The notes under the pieces were generated by a model. That model was not told the DNA's origin. It worked only from the letters and a program-made list of their open reading frames with translations, and searched no databases. Shown here in pieces: positions 1,090 through 26,414 of a stretch of DNA of 26,716 nt. The translations under genes and the position numbers were made by a program. The DNA is from a virus. The DNA lies in the IMG/VR virus record IMGVR_UViG_3300033998_000372, positions 1 to 26,716 of that record; one strand, written 5' to 3'. Positions within the stretch are counted from its first letter, which is position 1. Every line of letters starts with the position of its first letter.

Positions 1090-1458
1090 TTGAAGATATG
1101 GTTTGACACGCTTGACTATTCGAAGATAGACGATCCTGATTTTACATTTGAGAATGTTAAGCAGTTATACGAGAACATAAGCAATGGTGTTAGTATAGAG
1201 GATGCGTGTGCGCTTGTGATGATAACGCCGGAGCAGTACACAAAATGGTTTGAGTATGATGATTTTCGTATTCTCATGCAACATGCTGAGGCTAAATTTA
1301 GGGCTGAGCTTACAAAGAGGGTTACACGTGCGAGTCAGCAGAATCCTGTGCTTGCGTTCAAGCAGATGATGGAGTTGATAAAGCGTAGTGGGACAAAGGA
1401 GTCTGACATTTATGATGATTTAGTGAAAGCTGCTATGCGTGGTGGTAAAGATGGCTAA
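1090..1458 (+). CDS. terS: probable terminase small subunit
   Basis: 122 residues starting at TTG, chosen because GGTGGTGA ends 4 nt upstream and no in-frame ATG is nearby. Small terminase subunits bind the packaging site and feed DNA to the large subunit. The N-terminal half (about residues 20-60, ENVKQLYENISNGVSIEDAC then ALVMITPEQYTKWF) reads as a helix-turn-helix of the kind in small terminases: a 'tireless' helix, a turn at ISNGVS, and a second helix. The C-terminal half is helical and charged. The gene is immediately upstream of, and overlaps, the large terminase gene, the usual order. The family assignment rests on this context and the helix-turn-helix look, not on a specific signature. 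Confidence 0.75.
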   Translation: MKIWFDTLDYSKIDDPDFTFENVKQLYENISNGVSIEDACALVMITPEQYTKWFEYDDFRILMQHAEAKFRAELTKRVTRASQQNPVLAFKQMMELIKRSGTKESDIYDDLVKAAMRGGKDG

Positions 1459-2866
1459 CATGCTTATAGATATGATAAACAGGTACAAAGAGAAACCTTT
1501 AGCGTTTGTGAAAGAGGTACTTAAGGCTAAGCCAACGCGACAGCAGGAAGAGGTATTGATTGACTTACCGAATACGCGGAACATAGCTATCAAATCTGGG
1601 CATGGAACTGGTAAGACTGCTTTACTGTCGTGGTTGGTGTTGTGGTATATGTTCACAAGACCGATGTGCAGGATACCGATAACTGCGCCTACCATGCACC
1701 AATTGAATGATGTATTTTGGGCGGAGTTAAGTTTTTGGCTTGCAAAGAGTGAGCTGTTGAACAAACTGTTTGAGAAGACTGCTTCGAAGCTAATGCCGAA
1801 GAGTGACAAATACAAGAATTCATGGTTTGCAACGCTTGTATCTGCGAGGAAGCCTGAGAACATGCAGGGATTTCACGGTCAGGATTTACTTTTCATTGTT
1901 GACGAAGCGAGTGGTGTTAATGATGGCATGTTTGAAGTTATAGATGGTGCGCTTACGAATGAAGGTGCGAGGCTTGTTATGGTTGGTAACCCAACGCGCA
2001 ACAATGGATATTTTTACAACGCATTTCACGGAAATGCTGATGTATTCAAGACTTACACATTTTCATCGCTTGAATCACCTTTAGTATCTAAAACATGGTT
2101 GAAGAAGATGGAGAGGCTTTATGGTGTTGATAGTGATGTTTATAGGGTTAGGGTATTGGGTGAATTTCCGCGAATTGACTCTAATTTTGTGATACCGTTA
2201 TCATGGATTGAGCAAGCGATTTTGAATGAAGACAAAGTATATGGTGATGTTGTTATTGGAGTTGATGTTGCGAGGAGTGGTGATGATAAGACAGCTATAG
2301 TTGTGCGCAATGGTTATGTGATTGAGAAGATTTTTGTTTACAGTAAGCTTGATACTGTTGAGGTTGCGGATGAAGTTGATAAGATAGCCAATCTATATCG
2401 TGCAAAGATAGTTGCGATTGAAGCGGTTGGTTTTGGTGCTGGTGTTCTTGATATTATTGCTCACAGGATAAAAAAAGAAAAGCGTAAGTATAAGCTGTAT
2501 CAATTTATACCGCAAGCAAAGGCGGTTAAGTCTGAACAGTTTGTAAATGCGATGACAGAAGCGTGGTGGAATTTGCGTGGTTTGTTCAAGCCAACCGCTG
2601 CAGGTTTTCCAATAATTTCCATGTATGAAGATGAGCTTGCAATACAGCATTTATCGTGCAGAGAGTATGAAGTTGATGACAAAGGTAAGATATCTTTGAT
2701 GGACAAAGTCACCACGAAAAAGAAGTATGGTTTTTCGCCAGATATTGGTGATGCAATGGCTATAGCATTCTATAACAACTTACAACCTGCTAAGCATTCT
2801 GTAAAAAGCTCGATTAAAGTATTACGAAGGAGGCATAGCGAATGGGCAGAGTACCGAAACTTCTAA
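1451..2866 (+). CDS. terL: terminase large subunit (packaging ATPase and nuclease)
   Basis: 471 residues. The ATPase domain shows Walker A GHGTGKT (50-56), Walker B LLFIVDEAS (146-154, with D151 and E152) and a coupling motif MVGNPTRNNG (177-186). The nuclease domain shows RNase H-like acids: VIGVDVARSGDDKTA (D272), VAIEAVGFGAG (E324) and SPDIGDAMAIAF (D431, D434). This enzyme pumps DNA into the prohead and cuts it. Length is normal for the family. ATG at 1451 is preferred over GTG at 1439 because GGTGGT lies just before it; the gene overlaps the small subunit gene by 8 nt and the portal gene by 25 nt, so translation is probably coupled. Confidence 0.96.
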   Translation: MANMLIDMINRYKEKPLAFVKEVLKAKPTRQQEEVLIDLPNTRNIAIKSGHGTGKTALLSWLVLWYMFTRPMCRIPITAPTMHQLNDVFWAELSFWLAKSELLNKLFEKTASKLMPKSDKYKNSWFATLVSARKPENMQGFHGQDLLFIVDEASGVNDGMFEVIDGALTNEGARLVMVGNPTRNNGYFYNAFHGNADVFKTYTFSSLESPLVSKTWLKKMERLYGVDSDVYRVRVLGEFPRIDSNFVIPLSWIEQAILNEDKVYGDVVIGVDVARSGDDKTAIVVRNGYVIEKIFVYSKLDTVEVADEVDKIANLYRAKIVAIEAVGFGAGVLDIIAHRIKKEKRKYKLYQFIPQAKAVKSEQFVNAMTEAWWNLRGLFKPTAAGFPIISMYEDELAIQHLSCREYEVDDKGKISLMDKVTTKKKYGFSPDIGDAMAIAFYNNLQPAKHSVKSSIKVLRRRHSEWAEYRNF

Positions 2867-4002
2867 AGCAGTTTTATAATCCTTACAGTCAGTTTTCTGC
2901 TTTTAATGCAGAGAATATTTTACTTTCAAGCTTTATGCAGGTTTCGCTCGACAAGCTTGAAGCAATGTATAACGATCCTGATATAGAACGTTTTGTTGAA
3001 ATGAAAGCACAGTGGATGGCTTTGATGGTAAACGGTTATGAACATTCTAACAAGGAGATTGAAGATTTTGTCTGGAATGCGTTAAGTGATGTCGAAGGTG
3101 GTTTTAGTAATATACTTATCGACGCATTTGCTGACAATATAGTTTATGGGCATCACATCTCTGAAATAGTTTGGAATGTTAAAAATAACAAAATGGTTCC
3201 AAAGAGGTTTGTCTATATTCCACCAAGTGAACGTATGATGCTTGTAAATTCAAAAGGTGATTTCGTTGGTATAAAGCTTATGAATGGTGTTGAGATTAAT
3301 CGTGATAAGCTGTTCTACTACAATATGAGACCAAATCATGGGCTGTTTGGAAAATCTAGAATAGCAAGCTTGTATCCGTACTATCTCTTGCTTAAAACTG
3401 CAACGTATAACTATGGTAGAATACTTGAAAGATTTGGTATTCCATGGGCTATAGGGAAATCGCTTGATACTGATAAAATGCTTGCTTTGCTTAAAGAAAT
3501 GTATAATGTTGCTTCTGCTGCAATAGATCCTGATGAAACGATTGAAATAATTGAGCCGCGTGATACAGGTGAGATATTTGAGAGAGCGATTGATGTAGCG
3601 CTTGGTGCGTTTATCAGGCATCTTGGTATTCCTGAACTTATGGTCAATGTTAAGAAAACGGGTACTTACAACCTCGGAGAAGTGCAATATAACTCGTTTA
3701 TGGACGAAATTGAAAGTCTTGCCAGAAAGCAAAACAGGCCGTTAGTTGGTGCTTTGGCACAACTTATGATAAAATTAAATTGGGGCGATATGGAAGATTA
3801 TGGTAATTTTGTTGTAATTAAGGATGCAAATGTTGAAAGCATGAAGGGATATGCAGCTGTATTGCAGATGATGAATCAAGCAGAAAGCTTGAACGACGAG
3901 ATAAGAGCTTGGATTTATGAAAGAATGGGTATTCCGAAGGATAAGATGGGTTTGGAGGTGAATGATAGTGATAGAGTTAACGACAAAGTTTCAAAAGACT
4001 GA
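2842..4002 (+). CDS. portal protein, DUF935 (Mu gp29-like) family
   Basis: 386 residues. The portal ring sits at one capsid vertex and is the channel for DNA and the base for the tail. The sequence follows the DUF935 pattern: an N-terminal region with repeated short helices, VEMKAQWMALMVNGYEHS, then a beta core (HHISEIVWNVKNNKMVPKRF, RMMLVNSKGDFVGIKL) and the segment DKLFYYNMRPNHGLFGKSR, followed by a helical stem with LERFGIPWAIGKS. AAGGAGG (2827-2833) precedes ATG by 8 nt. It sits between the terminase and the protease genes as in Mu-like heads. It is a little shorter than Mu gp29. Confidence 0.9.
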   Translation: MGRVPKLLKQFYNPYSQFSAFNAENILLSSFMQVSLDKLEAMYNDPDIERFVEMKAQWMALMVNGYEHSNKEIEDFVWNALSDVEGGFSNILIDAFADNIVYGHHISEIVWNVKNNKMVPKRFVYIPPSERMMLVNSKGDFVGIKLMNGVEINRDKLFYYNMRPNHGLFGKSRIASLYPYYLLLKTATYNYGRILERFGIPWAIGKSLDTDKMLALLKEMYNVASAAIDPDETIEIIEPRDTGEIFERAIDVALGAFIRHLGIPELMVNVKKTGTYNLGEVQYNSFMDEIESLARKQNRPLVGALAQLMIKLNWGDMEDYGNFVVIKDANVESMKGYAAVLQMMNQAESLNDEIRAWIYERMGIPKDKMGLEVNDSDRVNDKVSKD

Positions 4003-8740: not shown

Positions 8741-9193
8741 ATGACAGTAGAGATAGGCAATTTGAAGATAGATTTTAGAAAGCCTACGGCATTTGAAGCC
8801 GTGGGCTTTGTTCCACTTTTTTCACGTTATTTATCTGTTATTGAGGATGCAAGGAAAGCTTATGAAAAACAGTTATCAGCCGCAAAGACCGATGAGGAAA
8901 AGAAAAAAGTTGAAGAAGATTATTTACTAAATCGTGAACGCATGCTTGCATCCTATTTTAGAACTTTTGATGCTTTTACGAGAAAGGAGCTTGTTAAATA
9001 CATTGCAAGCTTGATTGTTGACTGGAATTACAAAGAGAAACCAAAACCAGAGATTATAGAAAATTTGCCACCTATGCTTTTATTACCACTTTTTGAAAAT
9101 GTTGCAGTACTTACGCTTTTCGGGGATGATACTTCTATAAATTTTTTCGAAAGCATATCAGACTCGCAAAACGAGAAGGAAACAAAGGAATAA
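8741..9193 (+). CDS. tail assembly chaperone, short form (gpG-like)
   Basis: 150 residues: a short beta start (MTVEIGNLKIDFRKPTAFEAV), then helices with KAYEKQLSAAKTDEEKKKVEEDY, and an acidic end (NFFESISDSQNEKETKE). Siphoviruses carry a helical chaperone just before the tape measure gene, of which part is made with a -1 frameshift extension; it binds the tape measure protein and brings tube subunits. The same arrangement is present here (see 8741-9324). AAGGGGTGATTAG precedes ATG. Confidence 0.78.
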   Translation: MTVEIGNLKIDFRKPTAFEAVGFVPLFSRYLSVIEDARKAYEKQLSAAKTDEEKKKVEEDYLLNRERMLASYFRTFDAFTRKELVKYIASLIVDWNYKEKPKPEIIENLPPMLLLPLFENVAVLTLFGDDTSINFFESISDSQNEKETKE

Positions 9194-9324
9194 TATACAT
9201 CACAAAAAAGTATATTGAGAACTTAATCAAGACATCATCGAATCTTACATCTGACCAGCTCATGTTTTTAACGTTCCTTGAGCTTGAAGTTGAGAAGGAG
9301 CTGATTGATGATGGCAAACGTTGA
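8741..9324 (+). CDS. tail assembly chaperone, frameshifted long form (gpGT-like)
   Basis: A -1 shift near 9139-9148 makes a 194-residue product. The -1 frame is closed by TGA at 9127 and open from 9130 to TGA 9322-9324, and it encodes a well-formed helical segment (GIIYITKKYIENLIKTSSN, LTSDQLMFLTFLELEVEKE). Frame-0 codons AAT TTT TTC give two perfect slippery heptamers, A AAT TTT and T TTT TTC, in the narrow permitted stretch. The coding capacity of the gap between 9193 and the tape measure gene is otherwise unexplained. The G/GT fusion is conserved in siphoviruses and many myoviruses. Confidence 0.75.
8779..8809 (+). other. 12-bp hairpin inside the tail chaperone gene
   Basis: AAAGCCTACGGC (8779-8790) pairs with GCCGTGGGCTTT (8798-8809) with one G-U pair and a 7-nt loop ATTTGAA. 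It starts 38 nt inside the gene, over codons 13-23. A T6 run lies further on (8816-8821), too far for a classical terminator. It could slow ribosomes or adjust message level. Confidence 0.6.
9139..9148 (+). promoter_or_regulatory. -1 frameshift slippery site, tail chaperone
   Basis: AAATTTTTTC holds overlapping heptamers A AAT TTT (9139-9145) and T TTT TTC (9142-9148) in the zero frame of the chaperone gene. Only a weak 4-bp hairpin (CTCG 9163-9166 with CGAG 9172-9175) follows. The site lies just after the last stop in the -1 frame (9127). Confidence 0.72.
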
Positions 9325-11845
9325 ACTTAATTTAATTTTCAATGCAAGTGATGTTTTTAGAGCTCTGGATGAATTAGAAGCACGGCTTGCTAAATTTCAA
9401 GGGCAAGCTTTTCAGCTAAATATTGGTGGTAATTTTCAATCAGTTACGCAACAGGCAAAATCATTATCGAATGTTCTGAATGAGCTTAGGACAAAAGGCG
9501 CAATTGATATTAAAGCCACTTCGAATTTGTCTAATACTGTAAGGCAGATAAAAGACGAAATTGATAAAATTTCTGATAAAAGAATATCACTAACGCAAGT
9601 TGGAAGCCTTTACATGTTATCTAATGTTTTCGATAGATTTGCGAGCAGATTAAGTTCTATTTTTGATTCTGCTTTTAATGCTTTTCAACAGTCTGCTACG
9701 GCTTTGCAGAAAACAAGGATTGTTTCGGGTGCACCAACAGCTGAATATGATAAATTTGTGAGTGAACTGCGAAAGTTAGCACCACAAGTTATGATACCCT
9801 TTCCAGACCTTGCTGAGATTGCTTATTCCTTTGCTACAAGAGGTTATGCAAATCTTGCTACTGCGCCTGATGTTTTGCGCCCGCTTGCTATTTCATCGCT
9901 TATAACTGGCGAGACGCTTGACACTATGGCACGTTCTATATTGAGTTTGATGCAGTCGTGGAACCCACGTTCTTTACAGTCGCTCGAAAATCTTGCACCG
10001 ATGCTTGTTAGACAATTTTCAGACTTGATGAGTTATGCATTTGCAAAATCACCATTGGAAGTTAGATGGTTTAAGGATATTGCAAACTATGCAGCGCCTT
10101 TGTTTGCACAGTTAGGATATTCGCCAGCAGAGACAATGGCATTCTTCATGTCGATGGCGCAACAAATACCGACACCAGGAATTGGTGCGCGTTCCGCAAG
10201 GATGTTGCTGTTCAACGTTCAGGATATTGAAAAAAGTTTCAAGATTTATGAAAAGTATGGTATAGATGCTGCTGGAATATTCAGAGAAGTTTCAGAAAAT
10301 GGTGGCACGCTTGCAGACGCATTCAAAGCGTTATATGATGCTTTGCAGTCGTTGCCAAAAGAACAGCTTGTTAGTGTTTTCAAGCAACTTGGTGGTGGCG
10401 TACGTGGTGGTATGGCAGCAATGATGCTCGGGCAAGGCGAGTTGCTTGAAAACATTTCAACATACATTGATAAGCTTACACGTGAATCAATCGGTTATAC
10501 TTCTATTGTTGCAGCACAGTATCGTACCACACCTGTTGGTATCTTTGAATCTGCACAAGCTAATTTGACTGCTAAGCTTAGTGAACTTGGTGAATCTGTT
10601 GCAATTGCAAAGGCTGCTTTGTTGGAATTTCAAGCTTCACTCATTGATGTTGTTAATAAGTTGCCAAAAGGGATTGTAGCTTTTGGATATGGTGCTGCAC
10701 AAGGCGCACAGTTTTCATCAAGGTATATAATTGATACAATAGCTAATATTGGTCTTGCTTCTTATGTTACCAAAATGCTTGGTAGCGGTGTGCTATCTTC
10801 ACTTATCACAGGCGGGTTGATAAGTGCAGCAATTTTGCCATTAGTAGCAGGTGGTTATACTGCTTACAAATATGTTCAGGCTAAGCAGGTGAGCACTGAA
10901 GCACGAACTGTTCAGGAAGCTATTGTGGGCGAATCGCCAGTAGAGGCTGCAGCAAGAATTTTAAGAACGCTAGAGACAAAATTGGAAGTTGCACCTGGCG
11001 AACCGTATGTTATTATGCCTATTTCTTTACGGGCATATGAGTTTGAAACGCTGGAAGGAAAACAAAAAGTTTACAATAAAGAAGCATTTATGCCAATTCT
11101 TTCTATTCTTGAAGAGTATGGTAACGTATTAGAAGATAGTGTGATAAGATTTTCAGGGAGGCTTGGAAGCGGTTCTTCTACTTTTAGAAAGCAAGCTTCT
11201 GAATTAGAAGTTGCGGCTAAAAGTTTCTTTAGTGATTTGTACAAAACTTTCAGCTTTAATGAAACACAATTTGCTGATGTTAGTGGTTGGGAAAAGATAT
11301 TCAAAAAAATGGGTTTGGAAAATGCAGATGTTCTGACTTCAAACGTTGCTACAATAATTGATCGTTTGAAAGAAGGTGGAAAAGGAATACTTAGTGATAA
11401 GGGTGTAGCAGCAGGTTTGCAACAAATTATAGCGGCAGGTTTGATAGAAAAGGCAACAAGTGCTGAAGGATTTACTGAGTTTGTTGCAAGCATATATAAT
11501 ATTGACCTGTCTATGCAAGACATAGAGGCTTTGATTTCTACAATTGCACAAAGTATTCCTGAAATATCGCAAAAAGTTTCAGAAATAGCTTCACAGCAAA
11601 CAACTAGGCAAGAACCGAGCTATGCAAGCTTGCTTGATTTGTGGCTAAAGGGTGCAATAATGGAGCCTTCACTTATGACTGAGTTGCCAGCATTGAAAGC
11701 AGGTGATTGGCCTGTCGAACGAACATGGGTTAGCGGAAATTATGCAGATACTGTTGCGATAGGTTGGAAAGTTCTAACACCAGAAGCAATAACAACAAGC
11801 GCGAATTTGGATGCTGCAATAAAACCAAGTTTAATATTCCAATGA
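9308..11845 (+). CDS. tape measure protein
   Basis: 845 residues; ATG 9308 with AAGGAG 7 nt upstream is favoured over TTG 9305. It is the longest gene and follows the chaperone, overlapping its long form. The N-terminal 220 residues are helical (LDELEARLAKFQGQ, LSNVLNELRTKG), then a region typical of phage tail tape measure proteins (EVRWFKDIANYAAPLFAQLG, FFMSMAQQIPTPGIGARSAR, LPKEQLVSVFKQLGGGVRGG). Residues about 460-520 are hydrophobic (GSGVLSSLITGGLISAAILP), probably the segment that enters the host membrane. At about 0.15 nm per residue the tail would be near 125 nm. It sets tail length and helps deliver DNA. Confidence 0.92.
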   Translation: MMANVELNLIFNASDVFRALDELEARLAKFQGQAFQLNIGGNFQSVTQQAKSLSNVLNELRTKGAIDIKATSNLSNTVRQIKDEIDKISDKRISLTQVGSLYMLSNVFDRFASRLSSIFDSAFNAFQQSATALQKTRIVSGAPTAEYDKFVSELRKLAPQVMIPFPDLAEIAYSFATRGYANLATAPDVLRPLAISSLITGETLDTMARSILSLMQSWNPRSLQSLENLAPMLVRQFSDLMSYAFAKSPLEVRWFKDIANYAAPLFAQLGYSPAETMAFFMSMAQQIPTPGIGARSARMLLFNVQDIEKSFKIYEKYGIDAAGIFREVSENGGTLADAFKALYDALQSLPKEQLVSVFKQLGGGVRGGMAAMMLGQGELLENISTYIDKLTRESIGYTSIVAAQYRTTPVGIFESAQANLTAKLSELGESVAIAKAALLEFQASLIDVVNKLPKGIVAFGYGAAQGAQFSSRYIIDTIANIGLASYVTKMLGSGVLSSLITGGLISAAILPLVAGGYTAYKYVQAKQVSTEARTVQEAIVGESPVEAAARILRTLETKLEVAPGEPYVIMPISLRAYEFETLEGKQKVYNKEAFMPILSILEEYGNVLEDSVIRFSGRLGSGSSTFRKQASELEVAAKSFFSDLYKTFSFNETQFADVSGWEKIFKKMGLENADVLTSNVATIIDRLKEGGKGILSDKGVAAGLQQIIAAGLIEKATSAEGFTEFVASIYNIDLSMQDIEALISTIAQSIPEISQKVSEIASQQTTRQEPSYASLLDLWLKGAIMEPSLMTELPALKAGDWPVERTWVSGNYADTVAIGWKVLTPEAITTSANLDAAIKPSLIFQ

Positions 11846-14194: not shown

Positions 14195-14206
14195 GGGGGA
14201 ATGCAA

Positions 14207-14425
14207 ATGTTTTTCGACCAATTAGCGAAAAAGAGATTCAAGCTTGAAAATGATTCAACATTATTCAACACATTTCAAGGAAGAGTTAAGAGCACTAATT
14301 TCAATTATACTACGTTAGACACGCCACTTGGTGATTTAAAAGTAACTCCTGCTGCTGGAGACAGGATTGGTTCGAGGCGCTTTCACATAAAGACTTCTAC
14401 AGGGGAGACTGATAACCCTTTTTGA
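14207..14425 (+). CDS. 72-residue N-terminal part of a frameshifted tail protein
   Basis: ATG 14207 lies 7 nt after GGGGG; ATG 14201 is too close to it. The protein starts MFFDQLAKKRFKLENDSTLF and continues with short strands (FNTFQGRVKSTNFNYTTLDT, PLGDLKVTPAAGDRIGSRRF). It ends TGETDNPF at TGA 14423. The last codons before the stop, AAC CCT TTT, form a perfect -1 slippery heptamer, followed by a strong hairpin. The product released at the TGA is either a separate small protein or the unshifted form of the long protein. Confidence 0.65.
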   Translation: MFFDQLAKKRFKLENDSTLFNTFQGRVKSTNFNYTTLDTPLGDLKVTPAAGDRIGSRRFHIKTSTGETDNPF

Positions 14426-16389
14426 TTCCGCTTCCACAATCTTGTGGTTCAAGCGGATATGGTTTTTTTATTGTAGGAAAAGAAGGCACAAACTATGGCA
14501 AGCAGGTATGGCTTGCTACTCGCAGTAAAATAACAAAAATATTTGAAGTAAATGATGGATACATAGTAGCAGACAGCAGATACAATACAGTAAACTATTC
14601 GAACAATTTAATTGCATTGCACATAAGATATCTTGAACCACATTCTTCTGAGTTTAAATTTTATTATGATGGCATTGTGATAATAGATGCAACTGGTCGT
14701 GTTGTTGGTTCTTTCATGTTCAGAGACCTTGCAAAGTTCATTTGCGATATAATAATGAAGCACATGAAGCATTGGAAATATTTCAAAATGTATTTTGGTG
14801 TTATGAATCAAGCTATACTTACGAAACAAAGATATATAATGTCTTTTCCAGATACTTCACCGCGCGGTTTACAATTAATTACGATTTCTTCTGAAGGCGG
14901 GTTTATAACAGATATACATCCTGAATACAAGCCTGAAAACAAGATACCTGCTGGACTATTCGCGTATAATTTTTCAATAGACCAAGGTGAACAAGCAGAA
15001 ATATATCGTGATTTTTCTGTTGAAAATGCTTTTAATTTTGAACAAACGCAGACTTATATGCCTTTACCTACTTCACCTTATGTTAGTGCTTATGTTTACA
15101 TTCTTGGTGAAGATTTTGATAAAGTTTTTGTGTTTGAGCCTATTGCAGTTCTGCCGAAGGCAGTCTTGGATGCTACTGCTTTTGACTTAGAAGAAAAGGT
15201 TATAGATGCAAGCAAAGCACTAAGAGGAGACGAAAGTTTAATTGGCGCATTTGGTTTTTATTCACGTGGTTTTTACAACCAATGGTTTATTACACCTAAT
15301 TATGTTGGTGCTATGTCGGTACAGTTTGTTGGCTGGGATAGTGGCATAACTGCATTTAAAATAGATGCACGTAGAATAGATGATGTTTTAGACATTGCGC
15401 GACCTGCTTATAGAACTATTAGCGATCCTGAATTCAAAGCGCTTGTCATGTATATTGAGTATTCAAAATACAGGGACCAATTTGTGCTTAGTGATTTAGG
15501 CGGTGCAATAGAGATTTTTTGGCGTTTAGGTCCACCTATGTGGATGTATTCAGTTTATGATATGTATGCAGGGCTTATTACATATGTTTCGGTTGAATAT
15601 GAGGATGCAGTTCATTTTCTAAACGACACGCCTATTTATGTTGGTGATTTAGAATTTAAGATTTCGAACTATACTGCAAAGATATTGCGTAGAGGGAAAG
15701 ACGCTTACATATTTGGTTGGGATTCAACAGAAGGTACATATAGGTTATATAAGGGCACATGGGGTCTTGAAACTGTACGTGAATTTGATAGAGCAAAATA
15801 TTATGTTGGTCCAGAGATTATGATTGGTAAGAATGGAAAAGATGTTTTCTTATTTCAAGGCATTTCTAAGCAAAAAGAAACATTTCCTATGATACGCTAC
15901 AAAGATTTGATAGCGAAAGATGAAGTAATGCCTTCGAAAATAATAGGCACAAATGCTTTCTTAGCTTTGCGTAAAGATGGTGATATTGAGAACGCACCAC
16001 TCTTTTCTCTCATATTTTATGGCTGGACATCACAAAATAATAAAACTATGACTGATGGGGGTATATCGATTATCGATTACTATCCTGTAGGCGTTTTAGG
16101 AAATTTTGTGATAAAAGGTTACGTTGATAATATAGTTGGTGCGTTTAATTCTGCTTTTGTTGAGATGAATGATGTTTATTCTAAGAAATATTTATTTGCT
16201 GACTTCAATGGTTGGATAAACGAATTGAAAGATTTTTGGTGTGAAGAGAATTGGTATGTAAGAAAAGTTAAAGAATTTACTACTTTCGACAAATTTTTAG
16301 CTGATAGTTTCGAATATGATACAATAGATATAGTGAATGCCAACAAGAGACTACAAGTTTTGAAGTTTCTTGAAGGGGAGGTAATATAA
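14207..16389 (+). CDS. long tail-tip protein made by -1 frameshift (predicted 727 aa)
   Basis: A -1 shift at 14416-14422 joins the 72-residue ORF to the next, which has no good start: its first start codon, TTG 14422, has no ribosome site near it, and the first in-frame ATG is almost 100 codons in. The fusion point reads DNPF then LIPLPQSCGSSGYG. The long part is beta-rich with many aromatic residues and no recognised domain; stretches such as QWFITPNYVGAMSVQFVGWD and DAYIFGWDSTEGTYRLYKG may be propeller-like blades. It lies in the tail-tip block and ends with AAGGGGAGGT for the next gene. If no shift occurs, initiation at TTG by coupling would be needed. Confidence 0.7.
14416..14456 (+). promoter_or_regulatory. 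programmed -1 frameshift signal: CCCTTTT, spacer and hairpin
   Basis: C CCT TTT (14416-14422) is followed at once by TGA in the zero frame. After a 5-nt gap a hairpin runs from 14428 to 14456: CCGCTT (14428-14433) pairs with AAGCGG (14451-14456), CCACA (14434-14438) pairs with TGTGG (14443-14447), loop ATCT, bulge TTC (14448-14450). The spacer and stem length fit known stimulatory elements. Confidence 0.78.
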
Positions 16390-17223
16390 ATGGTTTATGT
16401 ATATCGTCCAGCAAGAAAAGATACGTTAAAATATGATGTATCGGCTGGAGCAACTACGTGTGTAGTCGATGGTGATGTGTCGGCTATTGCATATTACCAA
16501 ACAGGCAAGAAAGTCGTGCTTACTTCAGGCGATACGTGGGAAAAGTTAGAGGTGCAAGGTATTGCTTATGATGATGTAGCAGGCGAAACCACAATCACAT
16601 TCACTACTGCGACTGATAACGCTTATTCTGCTGGTGCATATATTTATGGCTTGTCTGACGTGAAATTGCAGGTAGGAAGGCTTGATGGTGATGATGAAAC
16701 GACTTCGTTTAGTGTTGCTGCACAACCGAATGAAGTGCGATTATATAATTCTGCGAGTCCATATGGAATAGTATTGCAGGAAAATGATCCACCAACAGGA
16801 AATCAATGGAAATACAATTCAAGCACGCAACAAGTTGAACTTGGTTTTACGCCAACAACAGGCGATACGGTGGTTGCGTTTTCAGGCGAGACATGGATAT
16901 TCAATGATGGTTTTCTTGCTTCCGAGCTTTCAGAAACTATGGAAGAAGAGATATTTCTTGAACCAGATATTGATTATGACTGTATCTATGTTGGTTTTAG
17001 CGAGTATGCTTCCGCTGATGTTACTTCAACTTGGTTGAGTATTGGGAAAGAGATAGCGCAAGGACAATGGGAATACTATAACTACCATACCTTCTGTGGA
17101 TATTCTGCTGGTACTATGTTCAGGGCAAAAGTTAAAGCACAACTTCTTAATGCGAATGCGGAGATTTATAATTACTACAACATTGCATTGTATCTTGGGC
17201 ATATAGTTATGCCAACAAATTAA
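16390..17223 (+). CDS. tail-tip protein with EVR module (A)
   Basis: 277 residues; GGGGAGG precedes the ATG, which abuts the previous stop. Residues 1-90 carry strands such as KKVVLTSGDTWEKLEVQGI and TITFTTATDNAYSAGAY, a beta domain of the tail-fibre type. Residues 92-174 are the 'EVR' module (QPNEVRLYNSASPYGIVL, QWKYNSSTQQVELGF, DTVVAFSGETWIFNDG), shared with genes at 19281, 22611 and 25773. Residues about 175-277 are a further strand-rich domain ending in YNIALYLGHIVMPTN. No function can be named; the module design suggests a changeable receptor-binding or spacer part. Confidence 0.65.
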   Translation: MVYVYRPARKDTLKYDVSAGATTCVVDGDVSAIAYYQTGKKVVLTSGDTWEKLEVQGIAYDDVAGETTITFTTATDNAYSAGAYIYGLSDVKLQVGRLDGDDETTSFSVAAQPNEVRLYNSASPYGIVLQENDPPTGNQWKYNSSTQQVELGFTPTTGDTVVAFSGETWIFNDGFLASELSETMEEEIFLEPDIDYDCIYVGFSEYASADVTSTWLSIGKEIAQGQWEYYNYHTFCGYSAGTMFRAKVKAQLLNANAEIYNYYNIALYLGHIVMPTN

Positions 17224-19031: not shown

Positions 19032-19284
19032 TATCGAACTTAAACAATTTCAGGAAAAAAGATTTGAAATAGAAAGTGGTAAGTTATATGTTTTAAAATT
19101 GAATGCAGATAAGCTTACAGAAGTTGATATTGTGTTTATTGCTGGCGATGATATAGTTGCTTCTATGCAAGTACTCGTTGACATTCATGGAATACGCTTG
19201 CCTATTCGTGCGCTTGGTGAAACGATTGCACTAACAAACCTTACTGATGCACAAGTATATGGTTATATGGAGGAATTGACATGA
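19021..19284 (+). CDS. small tail-tip region protein, unknown
   Basis: 87 residues; GGAGGTGAACGCAT precedes ATG, and the gene overlaps the previous one by 11 nt and the next by 4 nt (ATGA). It has a charged N-terminus (ELKQFQEKRFEIESGKLYVL) then strands (EVDIVFIAGDDIVASMQVLV). The tight overlaps show that it is a true gene of the block. No family is recognised. Confidence 0.6.
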   Translation: MRNDIELKQFQEKRFEIESGKLYVLKLNADKLTEVDIVFIAGDDIVASMQVLVDIHGIRLPIRALGETIALTNLTDAQVYGYMEELT

Positions 19285-19826
19285 CTGTAAAGGATTTAAA
19301 ATCAGGTGCAGACTTAAAACGTGTTTTGTGCGAAATAACAAGTGGAACAACTGCTACTGTTGGTGAAGCACCTGCGGAAGTAAGGCTTTTCAGTCCTACC
19401 CATCCAAACGGTGAAATAATAGACGGATGGACTTATGATCCGCAGACTGGTCTGTTAACTATACCAAATGCACCGCAAGCGGGCGAAGAAGTGGTTGCTT
19501 TTTCGAGCGGTGATTATATATTCAATACGCTTTCCATGATAACTAACATTGCTGGTTATGATAAAATCGAAAGTGGAATAGTTATTCACGATCCTGATTA
19601 CAGGCTATTAAATCTTACGGTTGATATTGCAGGACCAAATTACCTTACACCGACCGTAAAATGGTATGATGATACAGGTGAATACGATTTTCCGTACACG
19701 CTTACAGAATTGGCAAGGGATACAGCGCTTTCGTTGAAAGTGAGGATATACTTGGGCACAGAAACATTTGGGAACTATAGAGACTTGTGGCTCAAAGTTT
19801 CTTGTGCTAAAGCGAGGGACAACTGA
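19281..19826 (+). CDS. tail-tip protein with EVR module (B)
   Basis: 181 residues. Residues 10-84 hold the EVR module in its shortest form: APAEVRLFSPTHPNGEIIDG, WTYDPQTGLLTIPNAPQAGE, EVVAFSSGDYIFN. Residues 85-181 are another beta domain (NLTVDIAGPNYLTPTVKWYD, then LSLKVRIYLGTETFGNYRDL). The 'YRDLWLKVS' end recalls LRNVAIRL and LRDVYVTV in the genes at 22611 and 25773. GGAGG lies 9 nt before the ATG. Confidence 0.65.
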   Translation: MTVKDLKSGADLKRVLCEITSGTTATVGEAPAEVRLFSPTHPNGEIIDGWTYDPQTGLLTIPNAPQAGEEVVAFSSGDYIFNTLSMITNIAGYDKIESGIVIHDPDYRLLNLTVDIAGPNYLTPTVKWYDDTGEYDFPYTLTELARDTALSLKVRIYLGTETFGNYRDLWLKVSCAKARDN

Positions 19827-20574: not shown

Positions 20575-22596
20575 ATGCAACTGACACAAGCAAAAGTTTT
20601 TAAGCTTCTTGTACATAAAATGCCTTTATTTGAGATATCTGATATTAATAGGGGACCTTTGTTTTACCCAAGGTGCAGGTTTACATTCGTTCCTAAGAAT
20701 AGCAAGATAATGTGGTTTTTACCACTTAGTACGTACTCTTTTTCGGAAAGTAGTTTTTCAGCTTCAATGACGAAAGCTTGTTTGACGTATTATAAAACTT
20801 TAAATTCTTCGGGTGTTATTGTTAATTCAGTCAACCCGTTTTTATATGCTTACTACTACTATGTAAGTGCTGTTTCTACTAGCTACTATCACTACTATGC
20901 TTCATATTTTCCTGCAGAAGAGATATATGACAAGACAGTTTCATCAGTATTTAACACAACAACCATGCCTTCAACGACAGATGAATTTCTCACGTTTTCC
21001 GCTGAAGAGTTAGGACAGTCTCTTGCAAAAGTTTCTGTTCAATTGCTTGGTGGTTGGGCTTACAATCAAAACGAACATTCAAGCAGAGCAGTTCATTACG
21101 TATTGAAAATAACAAAGAGTGGAGGATTAAATGAGGCGGAATTTGTATGGACTAAACTTCCGATAAACATAACACCAGCTTATTATAAACCGAATAAAAC
21201 GAGTATTTATTCTGAAAGCATTCCAATGTATTTTAACGATTCGAGTACCATTCGATGTTACAACTTAATTGATCCTGGTTCATACACAAGAAGTACTTTA
21301 TTTTTTATAGACAGCTCCGCAATTTGGGCAGAATCACGCAGACGTGTTCCTTCTGTAAAAGATGTTTACGTATATCTTGCTTTGCGCCCAGACAAGAGAA
21401 CTGTTGTTGCATTTGAAACGCCTTACGAGTTTGAACCAGAGAAGATTTTTGAAACTACTTTGTCATTTGATGCTAAACAGGTGACGTGGTTTAATAATAA
21501 AATAATCGTTTTAGAAGACAAAGACCCTTATGCCATTCACATACTTGATTTAGACGGCACTGTAACCAAAGTCGCAGACACTACTATACCACAAGGTTCC
21601 AATGTTTTGCTTGTAGCACATCCAGACCAAGATGTATGTTATTTATTTTCAGAAAACGAGCAGTGGATTTTATATAGTGATCTAACACATGAGACAACAA
21701 CTTTCGATTTAACAGGTTTGATTAGCTTTAATCATTTACAGTTTGATATAGATGGCTATGTTTGGTTTGATGGCAGTAAGAGAGACAAGCAGTTGCTTAC
21801 AGAAGTTTTAAACGTGCCTAATGCAAGGTGTAATTACACATATATTGCAGTCGATAATGGTGATGGGACTTATTCCGCATATCATCTTGATGGCACTACT
21901 CCTATTTACAACTTGCCTACAGAAGCTATGAGCGTGCTTTTCTGGTCAGGTGTTGCCTACCGGTATCCACAGAAGGTTGTCGTGCCTTACAATGCTACTG
22001 ATTTACAGCTTCTTTCGCAGAATGGTGATTTGTTAAATCCATACTGGTATGGTTGGGATGGTACGCAATGGGTACACTATGATGGTTCAAATGCGCGCCT
22101 AATAGACAGCACGACTATCGAACTTGAAGACGGTGTACAGCTAACATTTGATTTTTCGAATGGTGGCTTTGCACAAGATGAGTATATTTACTTCACTGTT
22201 GCGGAAGGAATAATCAAAGATGCGCTTTCAGAAGTTGAGATAAAGCGCGTATTTGACTTGCGTTTTTGGGAATATCATTATATTGACATTTCGCTTTCGC
22301 TCTCAAACTCTGATATAATAGACAATGGTGATGGGACATATTCATACTATATTCCTGAAGCATCTAACACGACATTTTGGGAATTAGACACATTCTTGGC
22401 AAAGGCTACATTCGATGATCCAGAGCAAAATGGTTCGGGTATGGGCGCAGAGATTGTTACTGACAGTGGTGACCTTGCTTCAGGCAAAGTGCTTGTAGAT
22501 ACAGCAACTGGCAAACTCACATTTGTGCAGGATGATATAGGCAGAACATTCCAAATGCACTACTATGTTATTGTTGATGTTGATTGTCCTTATTAA
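20575..22596 (+). CDS. large tail-fibre-type protein
   Basis: 673 residues, with GAGGTGG before ATG. The N-terminal half is rich in Y, S and T (YAYYYYVSAVSTSYYHYYAS). The middle (VTWFNNKIIVLEDKDPYAIH, ILDLDGTVTKVADTTIPQGS, NHLQFDIDGYVWFDGSKRDK) has the rhythm of beta-propeller blades. Two DNGDGTYS motifs occur, at about 427 and 584, so the last part probably has two similar domains. The final domain runs to VIVDVDCPY. It is likely a receptor-binding or tip protein; no enzymatic motif was found. Confidence 0.6.
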   Translation: MQLTQAKVFKLLVHKMPLFEISDINRGPLFYPRCRFTFVPKNSKIMWFLPLSTYSFSESSFSASMTKACLTYYKTLNSSGVIVNSVNPFLYAYYYYVSAVSTSYYHYYASYFPAEEIYDKTVSSVFNTTTMPSTTDEFLTFSAEELGQSLAKVSVQLLGGWAYNQNEHSSRAVHYVLKITKSGGLNEAEFVWTKLPINITPAYYKPNKTSIYSESIPMYFNDSSTIRCYNLIDPGSYTRSTLFFIDSSAIWAESRRRVPSVKDVYVYLALRPDKRTVVAFETPYEFEPEKIFETTLSFDAKQVTWFNNKIIVLEDKDPYAIHILDLDGTVTKVADTTIPQGSNVLLVAHPDQDVCYLFSENEQWILYSDLTHETTTFDLTGLISFNHLQFDIDGYVWFDGSKRDKQLLTEVLNVPNARCNYTYIAVDNGDGTYSAYHLDGTTPIYNLPTEAMSVLFWSGVAYRYPQKVVVPYNATDLQLLSQNGDLLNPYWYGWDGTQWVHYDGSNARLIDSTTIELEDGVQLTFDFSNGGFAQDEYIYFTVAEGIIKDALSEVEIKRVFDLRFWEYHYIDISLSLSNSDIIDNGDGTYSYYIPEASNTTFWELDTFLAKATFDDPEQNGSGMGAEIVTDSGDLASGKVLVDTATGKLTFVQDDIGRTFQMHYYVIVDVDCPY

Positions 22597-22610
22597 GGAG
22601 GCTGAGATTG

Positions 22611-23180
22611 ATGGTTAAGCTTTACAAAGATACAACCTCGCTTAAGTATGTTGTAGGTCAAGCAAGTAATACAGACATAATACCTTGTTCAGAGCAACCG
22701 AATGAAGTGCGTATATACAGCGAAAGCAATCCTAACGGCGTGCTTTTAACGCTAAATGTTGATGCCACGCTTGGTCCTGATGAATGGGAGTGGGATGATA
22801 CAAATAAAGAAGTACATTTAGGTGAAGTGAAAGCAGATACGATAGTATGTTTTGCTGGTAGTACTTGGCTTTATAACAATGTGCCTGTTCCTGTGAATAG
22901 TGATTCTGTTGAACAAGTAAGAGTAGTTAATGAATCAACGACTTTAGTCGCACAGAACGTTACTTTATCTGGCTATGAGATATTTGACTATTCAGGTTCT
23001 GAACCAACAATACTTACATTTTCGATAGATGGAAGTACTTACTCTCCAAGTTTGAATGTAGGCAATTTAGAGCCAAGCACTGAAACGATGGTGTACGTAA
23101 AAGCGACTGCAGGAAGCAATCCTGTAACGCTTAGAAATGTTGCTATTCGTTTGCAATATACTCTTATTTTTAAGGAGTGA
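22611..23180 (+). CDS. tail-tip protein with EVR module (C)
   Basis: 189 residues from ATG 22611, 9 nt after GGAGG (22597-22601); the longer frame start at 22584 has no ribosome site and overlaps the previous gene. Residues 5-90 are the EVR module (EQPNEVRIYSESNPNGVLLT, EWEWDDTNKEVHLGEVKADT, IVCFAGSTWLYNN). Residues 95-189 are an Ig-like domain: TTLVAQNVTLSGYEIFDYSG, TFSIDGSTYSPSLNVGNLEP, STETMVYVKATAGSN, then VTLRNVAIRLQY. It resembles the C-terminal domain of the gene at 25773 most closely. Confidence 0.65.
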   Translation: MVKLYKDTTSLKYVVGQASNTDIIPCSEQPNEVRIYSESNPNGVLLTLNVDATLGPDEWEWDDTNKEVHLGEVKADTIVCFAGSTWLYNNVPVPVNSDSVEQVRVVNESTTLVAQNVTLSGYEIFDYSGSEPTILTFSIDGSTYSPSLNVGNLEPSTETMVYVKATAGSNPVTLRNVAIRLQYTLIFKE

Positions 23181-24524: not shown

Positions 24525-24887
24525 ATGAAATTTACCTTTGATGTTATTCCATTGCTTAAGTTGAAAGAACTACAAAAACCATTAAAAAAAAGAGATGGTG
24601 AATGGTATTCAAACATCTATCACCCGATGTATTTCTATCCATTCAAGCGCTTGCTTGAACATTATAGAAGATTCATAAGCGACCTGCTTTCTTACAATTT
24701 AGACGAATATGATGACACAAAGCATTCAATAAACTATAAAGCTATTTATTTTTCACCAGAAGCATTTGATTTAATACGCGAAAGTATACATCCAGAGTTT
24801 CAAGATACTTACCTACCATCGTTTAGGTTCGATTTAGCATTTAACGAGTGTTATGTTGACGTGGACCATGTTTTGAAAGGAGGTTGA
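24525..24887 (+). CDS. lysis-cassette protein of unknown function
   Basis: 120 residues from ATG 24525, which has GGTGAT (24515-24520) 4 nt before it; an ATG at 24513 has no ribosome site but could serve a leaderless message. The protein begins MKFTFDVIPLLKLKELQKPL and is rich in aromatic and charged residues (HPMYFYPFKRLLEHYRRFIS), with no signal peptide or membrane span. It precedes the holin/endolysin gene and could be a regulator or a further tail protein. Its end TTGA overlaps the ribosome site of the next gene. Confidence 0.6.
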   Translation: MKFTFDVIPLLKLKELQKPLKKRDGEWYSNIYHPMYFYPFKRLLEHYRRFISDLLSYNLDEYDDTKHSINYKAIYFSPEAFDLIRESIHPEFQDTYLPSFRFDLAFNECYVDVDHVLKGG

Positions 24888-24892
24888 AAAAG

Positions 24893-25133
24893 GTGACAAA
24901 TGACGAAAGATTAGCACGGCTTGAAGAGCGAGTAAACAATCTATGTGATGATTTAAAAGAATTAAAAGATGGGCAAAATAGGATACTTGGCATGTTGCAA
25001 AATGGTTATTTTGAGCAAAAAGTAAAGAATGTTATCAAACAGCAAATAGGCGGCTGGATACTTGGAATTTTTTTTTTCTGGCTCGTTTATTGCTTTCCTT
25101 ATAATGTATTTGCTAAGGAAGGTGTTGGGATGA
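24893..25133 (+). CDS. holin-like protein if one T of the T10 run is dropped (alternative)
   Basis: Reading with nine T rather than ten gives a 79-residue protein: the same coiled coil, then a membrane span GWILGIFFSGSFIAFLIMYL and the basic end LRKVLG, with TGA at 25131-25133. This is a classic XhlA-like holin layout, and the TGA would overlap ATG 25130 of the transglycosylase (ATGA), the coupling used elsewhere in this window. It could arise by RNA polymerase slippage or +1 ribosomal shift on the run, or show that the true sequence has T9. Confidence 0.45.
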
Positions 25134-25570
25134 AACTAAAAGACTATGCAAATATAGTTCAGAAGTATTGTGGTGGTATAAAACCTGAGCTTGTAATGGG
25201 AATAATTGAAAAAGAAAGTGGCTTTAATGTCTACGCTATTGGTAAAGCAGATGATAAAGGTTTGATGCAATTAACTCCAATTGCGCTTGAACACTTGAGA
25301 CAGCTCGGTTATGAAATAGGTGATGTAATGGACGCAGAGGAAAACATACGCTTAGGTTGCGCATACTTGCAATATATTTATGATACTTTAAAAAACAAAG
25401 GCATTGAAACCAATATTGATTTTTGGGCTTTATGTGCTTACAATGGTGGTATTACTTATGTGCTTGATTGCATAAGCAAAGGCATAAAACCTGATAATTG
25501 GCATTACGCAATTGATGTTATCGCTTATTCAAAAAGATATAAAGGACTTTTCGGAGAGGTGAAAGAATGA
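24893..25570 (+). CDS. holin-like membrane domain fused to lytic transglycosylase
   Basis: 225 residues from GTG 24893, chosen since AAAGGAGGT (24876-24884) is 8-9 nt upstream; TTG 24884 is inside that site. Residues 1-50 are a coiled coil (DERLARLEERVNNLCDDLKE) and 54-70 a membrane span (WILGIFFFWLVYCFPY), as in XhlA-type holin-like proteins. Residues about 81-222 are a soluble lytic transglycosylase: EKESGFN (catalytic E108), GLMQLTP (123-129), CAYNGG (181-186). The enzyme cleaves cell-wall glycan at lysis. After the span VFA-KEG (residues 72-77) could be a signal peptidase site. The join lies on a T10 run (25068-25077), so the fusion depends on exact run length; see the findings. Confidence 0.75.
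   Translation: MTNDERLARLEERVNNLCDDLKELKDGQNRILGMLQNGYFEQKVKNVIKQQIGGWILGIFFFWLVYCFPYNVFAKEGVGMKLKDYANIVQKYCGGIKPELVMGIIEKESGFNVYAIGKADDKGLMQLTPIALEHLRQLGYEIGDVMDAEENIRLGCAYLQYIYDTLKNKGIETNIDFWALCAYNGGITYVLDCISKGIKPDNWHYAIDVIAYSKRYKGLFGEVKE
25068..25077 (+). other. T10 homopolymer at the holin-endolysin junction
   Basis: Ten T in a row inside the membrane-span codons. All three readings through it stay hydrophobic: frame 0 continues into the transglycosylase, minus one T ends at 25133, and plus one T ends at TAA 25102-25104 (FFFLARLLLSL). Confidence 0.85.
25130..25570 (+). CDS. lytic transglycosylase endolysin from an internal start (alternative)
   Basis: ATG 25130 begins MKLKDYANIVQKYCGG, exactly at the start of the transglycosylase domain, with AAGGAAGGTG (25115-25124) upstream. 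The 146-residue product lacks any signal or membrane segment, as a canonical endolysin that needs a holin would. It is in the same frame as the fused gene, so both forms could be made from one message, or only this one if the upstream gene ends at 25133. Confidence 0.6.
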   Translation: MKLKDYANIVQKYCGGIKPELVMGIIEKESGFNVYAIGKADDKGLMQLTPIALEHLRQLGYEIGDVMDAEENIRLGCAYLQYIYDTLKNKGIETNIDFWALCAYNGGITYVLDCISKGIKPDNWHYAIDVIAYSKRYKGLFGEVKE

Positions 25571-25772: not shown

Positions 25773-26414
25773 ATGGCATTGAAATTTTATGCAGATAGTG
25801 GATTTACACAGAGAATAATGGAAATTCTTGGGACTTTAAGTGATAGCGGTTCACAGTTTACTGTTTCAGAAGAACCTGCTGAAGTAAGGATATTCGAAGC
25901 AGGAAAACCATACGGACAACTTCTAACGAAGAACACATCTACTCCAACAAGTCCTGCTGCAGGAGAATGGGGATATTCTGGTGGTACAGTCTATCTTGGT
26001 TCTGCACTTACATCAGGGCAAACTGCTGTTGCGTTCAGCACAGGACAGAGAATATTTGAAGGCGTAAACACACTTTCAGGTAAATCAAAGTTTCTCTCAA
26101 GTTCTGCCGATGCAAACGACAGAACCAAAAAACAGCAGATATGGATTAAAAATGATGCAGCTGATAAACAATATACAAGCGTATCCGTTGCTTCTGTGAA
26201 TGATTTACTTGCGTCTGAAGGTGCCGATCCATCATGGATTACGCTTTCTGCTGATAACACTACATACAATTCTGCGCCATTGTCACTCAGCGATATTACG
26301 GCAAGTGGTTCTGTATCATTTTGGATTCAATGCGTTGTGCCGCAAAACACGCCTGTTGAAAATCTACGCGATGTTTATGTTACTGTTGAAGCGCTCGAAG
26401 AATCTACTAATTAA
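25773..26414 (+). CDS. tail-tip protein with EVR module (D)
   Basis: 213 residues; GAAGGAGGCTGAATAAAA precedes ATG. Residues 4-99 are the EVR module: EEPAEVRIFEAGKPYGQLLT, EWGYSGGTVYLGSALTSGQT, AVAFSTGQRIFEG. Residues 100-213 are an Ig-like domain (QQIWIKNDAADKQYTSVSVA, WITLSADNTTYNSAPLSLSD, SVSFWIQCVVPQNTPVENLR) ending DVYVTVEALEESTN. It is like the gene at 22611 in both parts. Its place after the lysis genes shows that the tail-tip block continues or has been interrupted by the lysis cassette. Confidence 0.65.
   Translation: MALKFYADSGFTQRIMEILGTLSDSGSQFTVSEEPAEVRIFEAGKPYGQLLTKNTSTPTSPAAGEWGYSGGTVYLGSALTSGQTAVAFSTGQRIFEGVNTLSGKSKFLSSSADANDRTKKQQIWIKNDAADKQYTSVSVASVNDLLASEGADPSWITLSADNTTYNSAPLSLSDITASGSVSFWIQCVVPQNTPVENLRDVYVTVEALEESTN

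Follow-up and report, generated by a model that had tools for sequence, protein, structure and literature searches.

Organization of the locus

The stretch of DNA analyzed here (the window) is a 26,716-nt contig from IMG/VR, IMGVR_UViG_3300033998_000372, which belongs to an uncultured tailed phage. Downstream of the tape measure gene are found, in this order, a gene for a 547-aa tail protein, a short reading frame (ORF1) that overlaps a much longer frame in the -1 register (ORF2), and a series of genes for proteins with a repeated domain (Table 1). The site at which ORF1 meets ORF2, at position 14416, lies 2.6 kb past the tape measure gene. The repeated domain, recognized by eye as E/QPxEVRxY...W.Y...vxLG...G...vaFs...W.fn, is common to four window proteins (16390-17223, 19281-19826, 22584-23180, and 25773-26414) and is perhaps a tail-end decoration module. 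Also by eye, the protein encoded at 24884-25570 begins as a coiled coil and has a stretch, MGIIEKESGFNVYAIGKADDKGLMQLTP, that resembles lytic transglycosylases.

Table 1. Coordinates of the features discussed in the text.
Feature	Position	Strand	Remarks
Terminase	1439-2866		
Portal	2842-4002		
Chaperone-like pair	8741-9324		
Tape measure	9305-11845		Tail-end genes come next
Shine-Dalgarno sequence of ORF1, GGGGG	14195-14199	+	7 nt upstream of ATG 14207; pairing with the anti-SD, -10.4 kcal/mol
ORF1	14207-14425	+	72 aa from ATG 14207 (74 from ATG 14201)
23-nt identical block, ACAGGGGAGACTGATAACCCTTT	14399-14421	+	Shared by all three phages; 29 nt when only L005 is compared
Internal Shine-Dalgarno-like AGGGGAG	14401-14407	+	Presumed to stimulate the shift; 8 nt before the heptamer; invariant in three phages
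Slippery heptamer C CCT TTT (C CCT TTC in L010)	14416-14422	+	In register with the 0 frame
ORF2, -1 frame	14416-16389	+	655 aa after the shift; predicted fusion with ORF1 of ~727 aa
0-frame stop TGA (TAA in L010)	14423-14425	+	Directly 3' of the heptamer
3' hairpin	14427-14457	+	12 bp (7+5), 3-nt bulge, 4-nt loop; RNA folding; presumed stimulator

ORF1 encodes 72 residues, as the sequence-only reading had it: ATG 14207, with its properly spaced Shine-Dalgarno (SD) sequence, is a better start than ATG 14201. No usable family match to ORF1 was found in PHROGs, Pfam, or PDB sequences, and its AlphaFold model was poor (pLDDT 60). The earlier claim that the 655-codon ORF2 lacks a usable start was also borne out: the sole nominal early start is TTG 14422, which lies 14 nt from the nearest SD, a distance greater than that of every other window gene with a recognizable SD. 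Upstream, the -1 frame is blocked by TAA 14413-14415, and the overlap of ORF1 and ORF2 is limited to 14416-14425; therefore, any switch of frame is confined to these ten bases.

Elements around the slippery heptamer

The X XXY YYZ heptamer and the immediate zero-frame stop are both present as originally described, the 3' end of ORF1 reading AAC CCT TTT TGA. Twenty-three in-frame heptamers of this type occur in the genes of the window, and a long -1 frame (657 aa) follows only the one at 14416; the runner-up, with a -1 frame of 61 aa, is the tail chaperone. A near-identical second assembly of the phage has the same five T's, with 1 difference in 7971 bases.

RNA folding predicts a downstream hairpin of -15.7 kcal/mol (z-scores of -3.5 to -3.7), with four unpaired bases between the heptamer and the stem. 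The hairpin first proposed, of 11 bp with a 3-nt bulge after a 5-nt spacer, is the same fold without the closing U-A pair. Among 40-nt windows of the contig, its energy is within the bottom 0.3%.

A third element, absent from the sequence-only reading, lies upstream. The duplex between AGGGGAG and the anti-SD at the 16S 3' end was calculated at -8.3 kcal/mol, compared to -7.4 kcal/mol in the same calculation for the dnaX element. An SD stimulates bacterial -1 shifting when it is 9 to 14 nt upstream, and dnaX and ~56% of IS elements make use of one (PMC5009743); the 8 nt that separate AGGGGAG from the heptamer are just under this published range, and the distance is 10 nt if AGGGG pairs.

Conservation in divergent phages

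ORF1 and ORF2 were scanned against 2.9 million viral contigs, which yielded the near-identical assembly (L002) and two divergent phages, L005 and L010. The L005 genome (52.2 kb) is probably complete, since it has a 114-bp terminal repeat; that of L010 is 49 kb. Identity to the window is 73% (L005) and 70% (L010) for ORF1 and 68% and 65%, respectively, for ORF2, and in both phages the break between the two ORFs falls at the same codon as in the window. The genome of the L005 phage, probably a complete circle, also carries a complete tmRNA gene (L022:1105-1457; Rfam, 181 bits) with the tag ANKEPVAA, and no tmRNA gene was found in the window or the L010 phage contig. The 34 bases at the 3' end of this tmRNA gene match a stretch of a Moorella phage that is annotated as integrase, and they may point to an attachment site or to the host group.

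Both reading frames are under strong purifying selection. In comparisons with the relatives, ORF1 has a pN of 0.18 to 0.25 and a pS of 0.73 to 0.84, and for the two ORFs outside the 23-nt block, pN is 0.18 to 0.27 and pS is 0.70 to 0.84, which is near saturation. The block ACAGGGGAGACTGATAACCCTTT is one of two 23-mers in the 26.7-kb window that are common to all three phages, the other encoding the terminase P-loop. Where the amino acid is invariant, ~32% of codons across 24 genes are the same in all three phages, so that the chance of seven invariant codons in a row is 0.316^7 = 3e-4; only two runs of seven identical synonymous-capable codons were found, GHGTGKT at the terminase P-loop and TGETDNP at the proposed frameshift site. 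Since synonymous sites elsewhere in ORF1 and ORF2 are nearly saturated, the block is maintained by something besides protein sequence.

Alignment of homologues, which had been suggested as a check on the original proposal, showed that in L005 and L010 the heptamer is kept slippery and a hairpin is predicted at the same place. The predicted hairpins begin 4 to 5 nt past the heptamer in all three phages and differ in sequence; those of the relatives rank within the bottom 0.2% (L010 phage) and 0.6% (L005 phage) of the folding energies of their surroundings, and the z-scores of the single hairpins in these relatives are modest, -1.3 to -2.1, with three lineages in all.

The L010 site has been rewritten. 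Its 0 frame reads AAC CCT TTC TAA and its -1 frame CCC TTT CTA AGT GCC TTG CCA CAA; thus, TTT TGA of the window is replaced by TTC TAA in the 0 frame and TTT TTG by TTT CTA in the -1 frame. Pro-Phe-Leu is retained in the -1 frame together with the 0-frame stop, the T run is reduced to three (TTTC), and the Leu codon is changed from TTG to CTA, which is not a start. Because tRNA-Phe reads both UUC and UUU, C CCT TTC remains slippery. This variant argues against a restart at TTG, slippage of RNA polymerase, and sequencing error.

Discussion

In this study, we have described a site that we consider, with a probability of about 0.9, to be a programmed -1 ribosomal frameshift cassette of the dnaX or insertion-sequence type. 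A programmed -1 shift was the central proposal of the sequence-only reading, and it is now strongly supported by two divergent phages, one of which has the rewritten site C CCT TTC / TAA / CTA. In the proposed mechanism, ribosomes would translate ORF1 and the 3' end of their 16S rRNA would pair with AGGGGAG while the hairpin held back the ribosome front; tRNA-Pro on CCU and tRNA-Phe on UUU (or UUC) would then each move back by one base and pair with CCC and UUU. Without slippage, ribosomes would stop at the next codon and release the 72-aa protein; with it, they would produce a protein of ~727 aa with the join ...TDNPF-LIPLPQS. Some bacterial dnaX genes have also been reported to carry a zero-frame stop immediately 3' of the shift site (PMC5009743). 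From the genomic comparisons we infer that slippage at 14416 does occur, and the set of three elements suggests a rate above the few percent of lambda G-T, perhaps in the tens of percent.

It can also be envisioned that ORF2 is expressed by translational coupling, whereby ribosomes would terminate at TGA, be retained by AGGGGAG, and reinitiate at the TTG of the TTGA overlap to produce a separate 655-aa protein. In both the window and L005 this TTG shares bases with the stop, an SD precedes the stop, SDs before stops have been proposed to retain 30S subunits (PMC5009743), and a conserved SD, taken alone, could also serve such coupling. However, L010 has CTA at this position; its nearest -1 start candidate, TTG 5016, has no SD in range (the spacing is more than 20 nt) and aligns with CTT in the window, and no start position for ORF2 is common to the three phages. 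Furthermore, the SD-to-TTG distance is 14 nt, and coupling would need neither an invariant slippery CCCTTT nor Pro-Phe-Leu in the -1 frame. We consider coupling improbable. Still less probable is transcriptional slippage, in which RNA polymerase would add a U in the T5 run and so join the ORFs in part of the mRNA: T5 does follow C3 in the window and L005, but L010 has only TTTC, a T5C5 run slips only in a special context (PMC5009743), and the SD and 3' hairpin would have no role. A sequencing error or recent mutation that split one continuous ORF can be dismissed, since a one-base length change at the T run would suffice to join the ORFs but the same split is found in the near-identical assembly and two divergent phages, and L010 would make the same shift with a different sequence.

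The ribosomal frameshift proposed here resembles that of E. coli dnaX (tau/gamma) in the order of internal SD, heptamer, and 3' hairpin, with similar spacing (an SD distance of 8 nt here and 10 nt in dnaX); the heptamers differ, being C CCU UUU here and A AAA AAG in E. coli. Here the shift would yield the long product, as in some other bacterial dnaX genes (PMC5009743). The arrangement is also reminiscent of OrfA/OrfAB of the IS3 family, where a short upstream ORF is fused to a much longer -1 ORF and SD and hairpin stimulators are common; unlike those elements, the locus encodes no transposase, lies in a phage tail operon, and has an overlap of only 10 bases.

Phage frameshifts have been described for tail chaperones and for extension of the capsid or tail-tube protein (PMC5009743, PMC8718954). 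Like the G/GT shift of tail assembly chaperones, the shift at 14416 would move ribosomes into the -1 frame within the tail module of a tailed phage; however, G/GT lies between the tail tube and the tape measure, whereas this site comes after the tape measure and ORF2 is far larger. GT is absent from virions (PMC5009743). The frameshift-extended capsid and tail-tube proteins (T7/T3 gene 10, A2, PSA, A118, and SPP1 gp17.1*) likewise occur in a shorter and a longer version, frameshifting close to the stop being the source of the latter. In those cases, however, the shorter version is by itself a full major virion protein and gains a small, often Ig-like extension, whereas the shift at 14416 is predicted to add 655 aa to a 72-aa form. 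We found no programmed frameshift for a tail-tip protein in the open-access literature, which does not prove that none exists.

The window also contains a separate chaperone gene with its own slippery site, before the tape measure, in agreement with the original placement of the 14416 site outside the chaperone gene. The ORF at 8741-9193 holds A AAT TTT TTC at 9139 (A AAT TTT or T TTT TTC, 9139-9148), after which the -1 frame is open to 9324, and this arrangement, with AAATTTTTTCG, is conserved in the three phages. Judged by these features, 8741-9324 would be a typical tail-assembly-chaperone frameshift; therefore, the 14416 site would be the second frameshift in the same operon.

The long product had been called a large distal tail protein. 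Its location after the tape measure gene and the gene for the 547-aa tail protein makes this plausible; neither a family match nor a usable structure was obtained. ORF2 had no match in PHROGs, Pfam, or PDB sequences, in genome_contigs, or, by profile search, in 24 genomes from a terminase scan of genome_contigs, a scan that returned only generic relatives (33 to 39%). Similarly, tblastn of ORF2 and its neighbors against 50,697 phage records gave no match, no paralogy with the 673-aa protein at 20575 was detectable, and the AlphaFold model was poor (pLDDT 38, the structure models having been built from three sequences). From gene position, the product of ORF2 is likely to be a distal tail structural protein; the label "tail-tip" rests on that position. 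More tentatively, and at rather less than even odds, we postulate that a tail-distal structural protein of ~727 aa is made solely by an SD- and hairpin-stimulated -1 shift, that the free 72-aa product is also functional, and that the ratio of short to long product has been selected for tail-end assembly, beside the frameshift in the chaperone gene. The further suggestion of the sequence-only reading, that the two forms may determine the number of long subunits in a ring, drew no support from the present analysis and is a guess.

In conclusion, a dnaX-like three-part cassette that joins a tiny ORF to a large tail-end protein would widen the list of phage frameshifts, and automatic annotation would miscall two genes at such a locus. 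With two independent frameshifts, a single tail operon would permit a direct test of how product ratios control tail assembly.
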